A program made the position numbers and the translations under genes. This document shows, piece after piece, positions 264 through 61,235 of a DNA stretch of 64,000 nt. The notes under the pieces were generated by a model. The model saw only the letters and a program-made list of their open reading frames with translations, was not told the DNA's origin and searched no databases. Position 1 is the stretch's first letter; every line of letters begins with the position of its first letter. Source of the DNA: Clostridia bacterium (GTDB lineage: Bacteria > Bacillota > Clostridia > UBA1381). The DNA lies in the NCBI GenBank assembly GCA_017443895.1, contig JAFSXU010000055.1:1-64000 (forward strand), given 5' to 3'.

Positions 264-435
264 GGTAAATTTGGGTTTAGCGATGTATTACGAAATCGTT
301 GTTTGGTATGGTCGTAGGGACAGGTCTCTGTGCCTGTCCGTATCCCCGATAACGCATATTGGGAACGGGAGGGCGTGGAAACTCTGCCCTACAAATTGTG
401 ATACCCATTTACGCACATAAACCAAAATTTATACC
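264..435 (+). repeat. Interspersed inverted-end element (family A), copy 1
   Basis: A ~172-bp non-coding element bounded by GGTAAATTTGGGTTTA and the near-complement TAAACCAAAATTTATACC. It holds two internal hairpins, GGACAGG..CCTGTCC and GGGAGGGC..CTGCCC. Five more copies occur in the window. The right end overlaps the stop codon of the nitroreductase gene, which is read from the other strand. Confidence 0.8.
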
Positions 436-995
436 AAAATCTCGTTCATACTGCGCTTTGGGACATGGATTTTTCCGTTTTCATCCTCGTAGTATTTGAC
501 ATTGCCATCAACCATATCGCAAGCTTCACTTTCCTGCTTGGGATAGCCAACCGCAAGCAGGTACACAACCTTTAAATCATCGCCAAGCCCTAAAATACCA
601 TGGATATTCTCCCTGTTTATTGCGCCGAGCCAGCAGGTTGCAAGTCCCATATCAACAGCATATAACATCATTGATGTAACGGCTGCGCCTGCGTCACATT
701 CAAACTGTGCGCTTGCCTTGATTTTTGTGTCCCCCAAAACGGCGATATATGCCATGGGCTTTTCGCCGTCCTTTGGCGCACCGTCAGGCAAATATCCTGC
801 CCACTTGATGTTTTCAAAAAGCTCACTACACCTTTTTGCATCGTCAATAATCCCAAACTTTAACGGCTGCAAATTTGCTCCGTATGCAGATAACCTCGCA
901 CAGTCTACCATATCGAGCAATAGGCCTTTATCCACTGCCCTTTGCTCAAACTTGCGGATTGTTCTTCTTTTTTCAATAGCTTCTTTTACATTCAT
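429..995 (-). CDS. Nitroreductase family protein
   Basis: A 188-residue FMN-dependent oxidoreductase of the nitroreductase superfamily, expected to use NAD(P)H to reduce nitro-aromatics, quinones or another small substrate; the true substrate is unknown. R10-R11-T-I-R14 near the N-terminus is the usual FMN-phosphate contact, and the GLATCWLG segment around residue 117 is typical of the family. Length is normal for the short single-domain group. The start has a GGAGGAAA ribosome site (about 1001-1009 on the complement). The final codons and TAA lie inside the end of a repeat element. It is divergent from the decarboxylase gene. Confidence 0.88.
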   Translation of the reverse strand: MNVKEAIEKRRTIRKFEQRAVDKGLLLDMVDCARLSAYGANLQPLKFGIIDDAKRCSELFENIKWAGYLPDGAPKDGEKPMAYIAVLGDTKIKASAQFECDAGAAVTSMMLYAVDMGLATCWLGAINRENIHGILGLGDDLKVVYLLAVGYPKQESEACDMVDGNVKYYEDENGKIHVPKRSMNEILV

Positions 996-5363: not shown

Positions 5364-5562
5364 GGTAAATTTTGGTTTATGTGCATACCATTGGATTTAT
5401 TGTTAATGGGTATGGTGTAGGGTTGGGGCTTGCTCCAACCGCATCCCCGATACCGTATACAACGGCAGGAGCAAGCCCCTGCCCTACAAATTGTGATACC
5501 AATAATCGTTATTTGTAGGGACAAGCGTCTTCGGCTGTTTGTAATATAAACCCAAATTTACC
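5364..5562 (+). repeat. Interspersed inverted-end element (family A), copy 2
   Basis: Bounded by GGTAAATTTTGGTTTA and TATAAACCCAAATTTACC. The internal hairpins are GGTTGGGGCTTGCTCCAACC and GGCAGGAGCAAGCCCCTGCC. The copy carries an extra ~40 bp (TTTGTAGGGACAAG segment) before its right end. It fills the space between two convergent genes and lies over the stop codon of the ACT gene. Confidence 0.8.
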
Positions 5563-20131: not shown

Positions 20132-20458
20132 TTAATATCCGTCCTTTGCCCGTTTCTTCGGCATAGGCAGTTCTTTATACATTTGTTCAAATAAATCCTT
20201 TAAAAAAACCTTGTCCTCGATATTTTCTACAAGTAACATTTCCTTTGCACCCTCATACGGAAGTTCCATAACTGCGTTACTCATCAGATTTATTGCGGAT
20301 TTTGTGGGCTTTACTAAAAATCGGTTGTCGTAAATTCCGCCTATTACCTTGCCACGGTAGTAGATTATGTACTCCCCCATCATAGCCCTGTACGCTATAT
20401 CACCTAAATCCGATAACTGCTCCAAAATAAACTCCAAATATCCTTTACTTGATGCCAT
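20132..20458 (-). CDS. TfoX N-terminal domain protein, copy 1
   Basis: A 108-residue protein made of a single TfoX N-terminal domain (YRAMMGEYIIYYRGKVIGGIYDN). The Proteobacterial name-giver regulates competence, but stand-alone domains in Firmicutes have no settled role. It is nearly identical to the gene at 21263-21577 through its middle 50 residues. It carries a slightly longer, basic tail (KKRAKDGY). The ribosome site is GAGGGGAT. Confidence 0.85.
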   Translation of the reverse strand: MASSKGYLEFILEQLSDLGDIAYRAMMGEYIIYYRGKVIGGIYDNRFLVKPTKSAINLMSNAVMELPYEGAKEMLLVENIEDKVFLKDLFEQMYKELPMPKKRAKDGY

Positions 20459-21262: not shown

Positions 21263-21577
21263 TCACTTATTTTTCTTTGGTACGGAAAGCTCCTGATACA
21301 TTTTCTCAAGCAGTTCCTTTAAAAATACCTTGTCCTCGATATCTTCTACAAGTAACATTTCCTTTGCACCCTCATACGGAAGCTCCATAACAGCATCACT
21401 CATCAGATTTATGGCGGATTTTGTGGGCTTTACTAAAAATCGGTTGTCGTAAATTCCGCCTATTACCTTGCCACGGTAGTAGATTATATACTCCCCCATC
21501 ATAGCCCTGTATGTTATATTATCTAACTTTGATAACTGTTCCAGCACAAACCCTAAATACTCTTTACTTGTCGCCAT
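21263..21577 (-). CDS. TfoX N-terminal domain protein, copy 2
   Basis: A 104-residue paralog of the 20132-20458 gene. Residues about 23-76 (from YRAMMGEYII to GAKEMLLVE) differ by only one residue, while the ends have diverged. A strong GGGAGG ribosome site lies upstream. The DNA of the shared core is also nearly identical, pointing to recent duplication or gene conversion. Confidence 0.85.
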   Translation of the reverse strand: MATSKEYLGFVLEQLSKLDNITYRAMMGEYIIYYRGKVIGGIYDNRFLVKPTKSAINLMSDAVMELPYEGAKEMLLVEDIEDKVFLKELLEKMYQELSVPKKNK

Positions 21578-34870: not shown

Positions 34871-35036
34871 TAAATTTTGGTTTAGCGTACCAATGAAAAA
34901 ATCGTAAATTGGTATGGTCGTAGGGTTGGGGCTTGCTCCAACCGTTCCAAATATGCGTTATCGGGGACACGGCAGGAGCAAGCCCCTGCCCTACAATAAC
35001 AATACCCATTTACACCGCTAAACCAAAATTTATCCC
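34871..35036 (+). repeat. Interspersed inverted-end element (family A), copy 3
   Basis: Ends TAAATTTTGGTTTA and TAAACCAAAATTTATCCC. The internal arm pairs are ACCAAT../ATTGGT, GGTTGGGGCTTGCTCCAACC and GGCAGGAGCAAGCCCCTGCC. With the family B unit after it, it fills the 476-bp gap between the Lrp gene and the secreted-protein operon. I see no gene in that gap. Confidence 0.8.
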
Positions 35037-35054
35037 AAACCGCCATATTATTAA

Positions 35055-35120
35055 AGAAAAATCGAAGATTTTTCCACCATAATTATTCATCATTCATTAT
35101 TCATTTAATCAAAATTTACC
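35055..35120 (+). repeat. Hairpin plus TTATTCA-repeat unit (family B)
   Basis: GAAAAATC-gaa-GATTTTTC, then CCACCATAATTATTCATCATTCATTATTCA repeats and an AAAATTTACC end. It is the mirror of the unit at 179-242 and, like it, lies beside a family A copy. Confidence 0.7.
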
Positions 35121-50567: not shown

Positions 50568-50589
50568 ATTAGTGGCTGTTGCCATAAAT

Positions 50590-50710
50590 TTTGGTTTTGG
50601 CGTACGAAATGTCTATTGGTATCGCTAATTTGTAGGGGAGGGTCTCTGTGCCCTCCCTTGCCCAATATACGGTATCAGATGCGCATGACCCAAAATTTAT
50701 TCAATAGCCA
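50590..50710 (-). repeat. Interspersed inverted-end element (family A), copy 4, truncated
   Basis: Ends ATAAATTTTGGTTTTGG and CCCAAAATTTATTC enclose GGGAGGGTCTCTGTGCCCTCCC; the second internal hairpin is missing. It fills most of the 189-bp gap between hydA and mreB and creates a false 47-codon extension of the mreB frame. Confidence 0.6.
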
Positions 50711-54412: not shown

Positions 54413-54436
54413 GTGTTGTAAATTTGGGGTTAGCGG

Positions 54437-54507
54437 GGTAAATTTGATTAAATGAATAATGAATGATGAATAATGAATAATTATGGTGGAAAAATCTCCG
54501 ATTTTTC
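54437..54507 (-). repeat. Hairpin plus TTATTCA-repeat unit (family B), reverse copy
   Basis: GGTAAATTTGATTAAATGA, several GAATAAT/GAATGAT repeats, then GAAAAATC-tcc-GATTTTTC. Very close to the unit at 179-242, and again directly beside a family A copy. Confidence 0.75.
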
Positions 54508-54525
54508 TATAATATGGCGGTTGGG

Positions 54526-54696
54526 GGTAAATTTTGATTTAGCATACCAATTGAAAAATCGTAAATTGGTATGGTCGTAGGGGCAGGTCTCCGTGCCTGC
54601 CCGTATCCCCGATAATGCATACTGGAAACGGGAGGGCATGGAAACCCTCCCCTACAAATTGTGATACCCATTCACCCATATAAACCAAAATTTACC
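54526..54696 (+). repeat. Interspersed inverted-end element (family A), copy 5
   Basis: Ends GGTAAATTTTGATTTA and TAAACCAAAATTTACC; internal hairpins GGGCAGG..CCTGCCC and GGGAGGGC..CCCTCCC. The right end contains the stop codon of the DNA-alkylation-repair gene on the other strand. With the family B unit it fills the 54413-54691 gap; no gene is seen there. Confidence 0.8.
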
Positions 54697-55399
54697 GTTT
54701 ATACCGTAAAATATAATCCTTATCCGATTTTGAAACTCTTAAAGAGTCTCTTATTTTTTGTATCGCCATATTCTGTGTTACATCGCTTAGTTTATTACAC
54801 CCCAAATACTCCATTGTCCTATCGTGGCATTTACAAAATGCGGTTGCGACAAGCCATGCCTGCATCATATTAACATAATAAAAATCGGAGTCTACAGAGT
54901 TTACCAATTCAAAAACACGGTCTATGTATTCATCGTCAAGATAGAATTTCATAAGGCACAAAAGCCCCAGCCGTATCGCCCAAGGGTTTTGGTTTTTTAT
55001 AAACCACAAAGCATCGCCCATAAACTCATCACGGTATTTTTTTATGCCCGAAAATGTAAGGCTGTCGCATATCGCCCAGTTATAAATCCGTGAGGACATA
55101 TATTTAAGGTCGGCTAACAGCTCGCCATAGCCACATTTTTTGCTTGATAAAACTATCCCCTCAATCACCCGTTCCTCGTGGTAGTCGCCGATGGGGCATG
55201 CCAAAAATTCACGGTAGTTGCCCTTTGTAATTGCCCTTGCAATCTTCCGTACCTCGCCCATGCGTATACCGAAAAAATGCGGAGTGTCGGGGATAATTTT
55301 TGAATTGAAATTTTTATAATCAAAATCAGTCAGTGATGACAAATACTCCAAAAACAGAGCATAATCATCCCTTGTCCATGTATCTCTTGTAAGTATCAT
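54692..55399 (-). CDS. DNA alkylation repair protein (AlkD-like, HEAT repeats)
   Basis: A 235-residue all-helical protein. FFGIRMGEVRKIAR, NWAICDSLTF and NPWAIRLGLLCLMKFYL are typical of the AlkD family of HEAT-like DNA glycosylases, which remove N3- and N7-alkylated bases. Its ATG overlaps the trmB stop (ATGA), with GAGGCAAGG upstream. Last gene of the his-trmB operon; its TAA is inside the repeat end. Confidence 0.88.
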   Translation of the reverse strand: MILTRDTWTRDDYALFLEYLSSLTDFDYKNFNSKIIPDTPHFFGIRMGEVRKIARAITKGNYREFLACPIGDYHEERVIEGIVLSSKKCGYGELLADLKYMSSRIYNWAICDSLTFSGIKKYRDEFMGDALWFIKNQNPWAIRLGLLCLMKFYLDDEYIDRVFELVNSVDSDFYYVNMMQAWLVATAFCKCHDRTMEYLGCNKLSDVTQNMAIQKIRDSLRVSKSDKDYILRYKR

Positions 55400-61064: not shown

Positions 61065-61235
61065 AATAATTTTTGGTTTATGTGCGTAAATGGGTATTGA
61101 AATTTGTAGGGGAGGGTTTCCATGCCCTCCCGTTCCCAATATGCGCTATCGGGGATACGGGCAGGCACGGAGACCTGCCCCTACGACCATACCAATTTAC
61201 GGTTTTTCAATTGGTACGCTAAACCCAAATTTAAC
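61065..61235 (-). repeat. Interspersed inverted-end element (family A), copy 6
   Basis: Ends TAATTTTTGGTTTA and TAAACCCAAATTTAAC; hairpins GGGAGGGT..GCCCTCCC and GGGCAGG..CCTGCCC. Opposite orientation to copy 5. It begins 7 bp after the GltD-like stop and ends just before the stop of the convergent permease-like gene. Confidence 0.8.

Follow-up and report, generated by a model that had tools for sequence, protein, structure and literature searches.

Six repeats in a gut clostridial contig: probable miniature inverted-repeat elements carrying REPINs that match resident RAYT genes

The six repeats identified within the analyzed window, the whole 64,000-nucleotide stretch of a Clostridia bacterium contig (JAFSXU010000055.1, positions 1 to 64,000), are probably small mobile DNA elements. 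Judged from sequence and from the behaviour of better known systems, each copy is likely a lineage-specific miniature inverted-repeat element carrying a REPIN, whose hairpins would be the recognition sites of the resident RAYTs, i.e. Y1 HUH enzymes related to IS200/IS605. Since the REPs of the elements match hairpins within the genome's own RAYT genes, a known enzyme-and-hairpin system, here arranged in an unusual way, accounts for their complementary arms. The feature is real and of a known kind, a REPIN with partners resembling RAYT group 4/subclass 2.4, in an unusual composite form.

The window copies are members of a larger family. The initial annotation had recommended that all genome copies be collected, and 57 end-paired elements were extracted from the 2.72-Mb, 77-contig gut clostridial genome. 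They are about 160 bp long and largely constant in their order: an inverted end (TAAATTTTGGTTTA), left scaffold, REP, spacer of about 23-29 nt, inverse REP, right scaffold and the opposite inverted end. The outer part consists of the terminal inverted repeat (TIR) and about 35-55 bp of scaffold per side, and the left scaffold of most copies holds a small AT-rich hairpin of its own. Each REP unit is composed of GTAG, stem, loop and stem, with the GTAG placed directly 5′ of the stem-loop. What had been described as internal hairpins are two GTAG-tagged REP units, inverted to each other and dispersed in many copies, i.e. a REPIN (a single unit in the window copy at 50590). With the copy at 54526 as a query, 42 genome matches were obtained, and another copy gave 78, overlapping matches on both strands included; a TIR-like pattern matched the genome 142+116 times, compared with 33+43 for the reversed control. 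Contigs C8, C22, C63, C76 and others of this genome (G000) terminate inside an element; the repeats thus interrupt the assembly, and the true copy number is probably higher.

All six copies initially placed at 264, 5364, 34871, 50590, 54526 and 61065 (copies A to F, respectively) were found, in both orientations and with inverted ends; copy D has one internal hairpin instead of two. Class I comprises the TIR-bounded copies A (266..431, plus strand; REP1 314-339 and an inverse, decayed REP2 367-392), E (54528..54694, plus strand) and F (61067..61233, minus strand; REP units 61106-61131 and 61158-61183), while the short copy D (50585..50699, minus strand) carries one REP unit of class I type (50632-50657). 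Copies B (5366..5560, plus strand; REP1 5417-5440, REP2 5464-5487) and C (34871..35032, plus strand; REP1 34920-34943, REP2 34971-34994) are also TIR-bounded and belong to class II. REP1 of copy C (34920..34943, plus strand) reads GTAGGGTTGGGGCTTGCTCCAACC and is identical to the in-gene REP of RAYT L034. REP1 of copy E (54577..54602, plus strand) consists of a GTAG tag, a 7-bp stem (GGGCAGG/CCTGCCC) and an 8-nt loop; its loop is the same as that of the forward in-gene REP of RAYT L035, and its stem is different. REP2 of copy E (54629..54654, minus strand) reads GTAGGGGAGGGTTTCCATGCCCTCCC, identical to the inverse in-gene REP of L035. The TAA of the TIR end is, according to the ORF listing, the stop codon of the neighbouring ORF at 429-431 (429..995, minus strand) and at 54692-54694 (54692..55399, minus strand). 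Copy B includes a third, degenerate REP of another type than class II (about 5515-5540). This extra unit and one in the C9:8350 element are of the GACAGGC..GACTGTCC type, which is a RAYT type of the sister species; the genome studied here showed no RAYT of that type.

Among the 57 elements, which have a common TIR and scaffold, 32 carry class II and 25 class I REPs. In class I, GGGCAGG or GGACAGG stems occupy one side and GGGAGGG stems the other; class II stems are GGTTGGGG/CTCCAACC and GGCAGGGG/CTCCTGCC, with a constant G·T wobble. The arms quoted in the initial annotation were recovered, i.e. GGACAGG/CCTGTCC (copy A), GGGCAGG/CCTGCCC (E and F) and GGTTGGGG/CTCCAACC (B and C) for one hairpin, and GGGAGGG/CCCTCCC (E and F) and GGCAGGAG/CCCCTGCC (B and C) for the other. 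The class II REP pattern has 86 matches in this genome; 11 other RAYT genomes have 0-4 matches each.

The statement that the arms stay complementary holds for 107 of the 115 GTAGGG units of the 57 elements (the constant G·T of class II counted as canonical). It fails for the second hairpin of copy A (GGGAGGG...CTCTGCC, two uncompensated mismatches), for single-mismatch units in three other copies, and for two insertion-invaded and two foreign-type units. The REP units are nearly invariant, compared with differences of about 13-27% in the element flanks. When folded as single-stranded DNA, copy E gave z = -7.1 (0/200 shuffles as good), and copy A a weaker z = -2.2 (6/200). A separate set of units with 100% pairing had been picked for a perfect 6-bp stem, so that its pairing arose by construction, and it was set aside as evidence. 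At the apex of the class II REP hairpin, an insertion starting with CTATC[AT]ACGGCGTTGTTGC occupies the same point in three REPs of two species (G000 C6:80281-80541 and C9:8350-8590; G012 L235, about 1279-1410), as if something targeted the hairpin tip.

Six Y1_Tnp matches were identified in the genome, three of which are RAYT-like (L032, L034 and L035). In comparison with the NCBIfam model REP_Tyr_transpos (NF047646, cut-off 80 bits), L032 passes with 92.5 bits, and L034 (66.1) and L035 (64.4) fall below. A sequence search of L034 against solved structures returned nothing at 0.001, while a fold search with its AlphaFold model (mean pLDDT 82.6) matched PDB 4er8, a RAYT bound to a REP hairpin (E 5e-7), as well as IS200/IS605 transposases. 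The closest named matches of the RAYT genes, among the matches listed, come mostly from gut Oscillospiraceae/Clostridia assemblies. The L034 coding sequence contains GTAGGGTTGGGGCTTGCTCCAACC in inverse orientation, and that of L035 contains GTAGGGGAGGGTCTCCGTGCCCTCCC forward and GTAGGGGAGGGTTTCCATGCCCTCCC inverse. These in-gene REPs are the class II (L034) and class I (L035) element units letter for letter, except for the class I left stem, and the dispersed REPINs thereby share their REP types with two RAYT genes of the same genome.

In-gene REPs were then surveyed in 83 RAYT genes, i.e. the best 80 of at least 546 relatives confirmed on genome contigs, plus L032, L034 and L035; with the best 80 kept, the sample leans to close relatives, and this applies to all counts given here. 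An inverse in-frame REP-like hairpin was found in 68/83 genes, nearly always directly past the HUH codons, and a forward one in 67/83, mostly at nt 108-138; 61 genes contain both. Synonymous-codon shuffles of the same genes left 1.7 genes with an inverse and 1.3 with a forward REP. The forward REP is located near the N-terminus in 59 of the 61 two-REP genes (L118 and L172 are exceptions in position), and the 8-nt arms of both REPs are identical in 44/61 genes compared with 3.7% between genes, a value reached in 0/2000 permutations. In the L034 model, a by-eye reading of the alignment places one in-gene REP site in the loop joining strands 36-40 and 47-51 and the other in the loop that leads from strand 83-90 to helix 103-120. 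A gene's own REP type recurs in its flanks at 18 of 71 loci (absent from 53), compared with 103/4706 foreign pairings, a supportive result.

G012, a sister species of the same genus with an 81% complete genome, contains six copies of the scaffold found via the TIR. Four of these carry ATT- or ATC-loop REPs, including exact copies of the REP of RAYT L214, which holds its REP type twice in frame; the other two carry GACAGGC..GACTGTCC REPs, the in-frame type of RAYT L220. The same scaffold is found with differing REP types both within the genome studied and in G012. A seventh, decayed copy without a recognisable TIR has class II REPs, one of which an insertion has entered; a class II RAYT was not found in the 81% complete G012 genome. 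When the exact TIR pattern was extended by one fixed base, it had four matches in G012 and none in nine other relatives, so the scaffold seems young and, at that sensitivity, confined to these species. Copy D is missing from the matching intergenic gap in G012 (83 bp vs 180 bp), the flanks of which are too diverged for a target duplication to be read; copies E and F correspond to positions at or near contig ends. Upstream of the L220 RAYT gene (about 958-1080; G012 C244) there are four tandem REP units of type GACCGGCGTCCYCGACGGTCC, a pair-for-pair relative of L220's own in-gene REP.

The initial annotation regarded compensatory changes in the arms as proof of selection on structure, a claim which we judged by structure-pair counts and shuffles. 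The near-invariant REPs, the overall pairing and the G012 units speak for it. The window itself offers a few REP haplotypes rather than many independent events, because distinct stems are few within one genome. The cleanest pair-for-pair change is seen in eight G012 REP units of one loop class (five distinct), in which 4/8 pairs are changed on both sides and none is broken; in this small sample of our own choosing the covariation score was 0.45, compared with 0.17 in shuffles, and 0/500 shuffles reached it. Because the two REP types match the resident RAYT genes and the G012 types match G012 RAYTs, the arm changes are mostly differences of REP type, with a few true pair-for-pair changes. The argument points the right way but claims too much for the window, and the property concerned has already been described for REPINs (PMC3116915). 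There is good support for selection on the hairpin fold, which RAYTs most likely read as single-stranded DNA. In other RAYTs, stem swaps are moderately tolerated, and GTAG and the loop bases matter (PMC8266576); such tolerance would give the observed pairing pattern.

The REP types are combined with the flanks in a mosaic fashion. The left scaffold is common to both REP classes, with zero difference in two cases (C18:54931 with C30:64062, and C46:109326 with C33:2245). The left flank has no clear tie to REP class (nearest neighbour 29.9/49; shuffles mean 24.6, max 35.2) and the right flank a weak one (34.4/49; shuffle max 37.1), while the spacer is strongly tied and travels with the REP pair (47.5/49; shuffle max 34.2). 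In inverted orientation, some class II spacers are almost the same as spacers of class I. The link between left and right flanks is not significant (Mantel r 0.07, 393/2000), so general recombination among copies suffices for the mosaic and no role of RAYTs is needed. The movement of REPIN blocks between intact scaffolds, also considered, was withdrawn, since the Mantel tests give intact scaffolds no support.

The outer scaffold, with TIRs and no coding capacity, looks like a MITE, which qualifies the earlier contrast with a dead MITE; that contrast is valid for the hairpin cargo, which has been kept. The length of about 160 bp, short TIRs and TA...TA ends resemble bacterial MITEs, e.g. those of IS630 type, which use a TA target. 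The elements differ from these in their REPIN cargo and in that neither an autonomous partner nor a target duplication was found: no TIR pair 0.7-3 kb apart was visible by eye among the first 100 of 258 pattern matches in the 77-contig genome, and over 57 copies nothing clear was detected beyond TA (the highest z among 81 offset/length combinations was 3.4, with exact matches no more frequent than in shuffles). No transposase for the element TIR was found.

Could these be plain MITEs, with arms kept complementary by a mutational process, in which template switching within the palindrome copies one arm, and with no protein reader? Such correction is known generally, and the class II spacer occurs between the REPs in both orientations (15 same, 13 inverted), a sign of palindrome-linked rearrangement. 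However, conservation extends to the loop and to the GTAG tag outside the stem, the units match hairpins of cognate RAYT genes exactly, and they resemble one another far more closely than the adjoining spacers and flanks do, which makes this explanation very improbable. A role as transcribed RNA structures (terminators or mRNA stabilisers), with mobility belonging to the past, would agree with the gene context: by ORF listing, about three of the six window copies (B, E and F) lie between convergent genes, two lie between co-directional genes, copy A is downstream of a gene (its other side being the window edge), and at two copies the TIR supplies a stop codon. Yet the same positional bias has been reported for REPs generally (PMC3733652), none of 4227 Rfam families matched at gathering score, and GTAG tags, identity to in-gene hairpins in RAYTs and a switch of REP type with the resident RAYT would not be expected from an RNA function; we consider it unlikely.

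A slightly better, though still doubtful, candidate is that RAYTs themselves move the TIR element ("TIRtron"-like), with no separate transposase. RAYT-like enzymes associated with TIRs have been described (PMC3733652), and of the 86 class II REPs, end-paired elements contain 62 and decayed scaffold another 15 (9 are elsewhere, 3 of them at the RAYT gene). On the other hand, no TIR was found in the 1.5-kb flanks of L032, L034 and L035, the REPIN at L034 has none around it, and the TA...TA ends suggest DDE-type TA insertion. The REPIN-bearing miniature element read by resident RAYTs has points against it too, namely the scores of L034 and L035 below the NCBIfam cut-off, the degenerate class II copy in G012 without a class II RAYT found there, the fact that neither a TIR transposase nor a target duplication beyond TA was found, and the flank mosaic that general recombination can account for.

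Under this preferred explanation, a RAYT would bind the REP in its folded, single-stranded form and recognise it by GTAG and loop more than by the letters of the stem, so that stems could drift by paired changes; by analogy with studied RAYTs, it would cut next to the REP and then rejoin the DNA, presumably in this organism as well. A REPIN may have been taken up as cargo by a TIR-bounded miniature element, or have turned into one of its parts, and the element would have spread into intergenic sites, often gene ends, probably moved by a TA-target transposase. Whole REP types would swap between elements through recombination or gene conversion among copies, the hairpins being kept intact by selection or enzyme-driven copying while scaffolds decay, and a change of resident RAYT may be followed by a change of REP cargo. 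More tentatively, the RAYT gene in this clostridial group may have its own address label, a matched in-frame REP pair in two loops flanking the HUH segment, with enzyme, in-gene and dispersed REPs changing type together and the TIR elements acting as an interchangeable chassis on which the lineage's RAYT overwrites the REP cargo.

The elements share with REPINs/BIMEs (GTAG REP doublets; Bertels and Rainey 2011; Di Nocera 2013) the GTAG tag, short stem-loop, two inverted units, dispersal, association with RAYTs and paired changes across the hairpin. They differ in that most sit in a longer element with its own TIRs and that one scaffold hosts different REP types. In-frame REPs within the transposase gene, generally between the HUH and Y motifs, are the unique feature described for RAYT subclass 2.4/group 4 (Quentin 2018; PMC6006769), and an in-frame REP between HUH and Y was likewise found here, as judged from gene positions; the clostridial genes differ in the second in-frame REP near the N-terminus, usually of the same type and in opposite orientation. 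REPINs, cognate RAYTs, compensatory changes and in-frame REPs in RAYT genes are already published. Two features appear to be new: one is a REPIN inside a lineage-specific TIR element, with REP cargo that varies according to the resident RAYT; the other is the presence of two in-frame REPs in a single gene, usually both of one type. The available text of PMC6006769, PMC3733652, PMC2817692, PMC3116915 and PMC8266576, supplements aside, and literature searches yielded no description of an N-terminal in-gene REP or matched pair. These features bear on the question of how REP types change yet stay readable by their transposase. A scaffold with flanks kept but REP type differing between sister species provides a testable case, and with recognition hairpins encoded twice in frame, REP/RAYT co-evolution can be read from single genes in many genomes.

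Two further repeats were observed in the window. A module of about 90-110 bp with CATTATTCATTATTCATT-like and GAAAAATCTTCGATTTTTC-like sequence (180-266, 35033-35116 and 54420-54528) adjoins several elements and bears a further TIR-like end, giving three-TIR composites. A 300-bp direct repeat (20153-20452 and 21272-21571; 87% identical, 1.1 kb apart) is unrelated to the elements.
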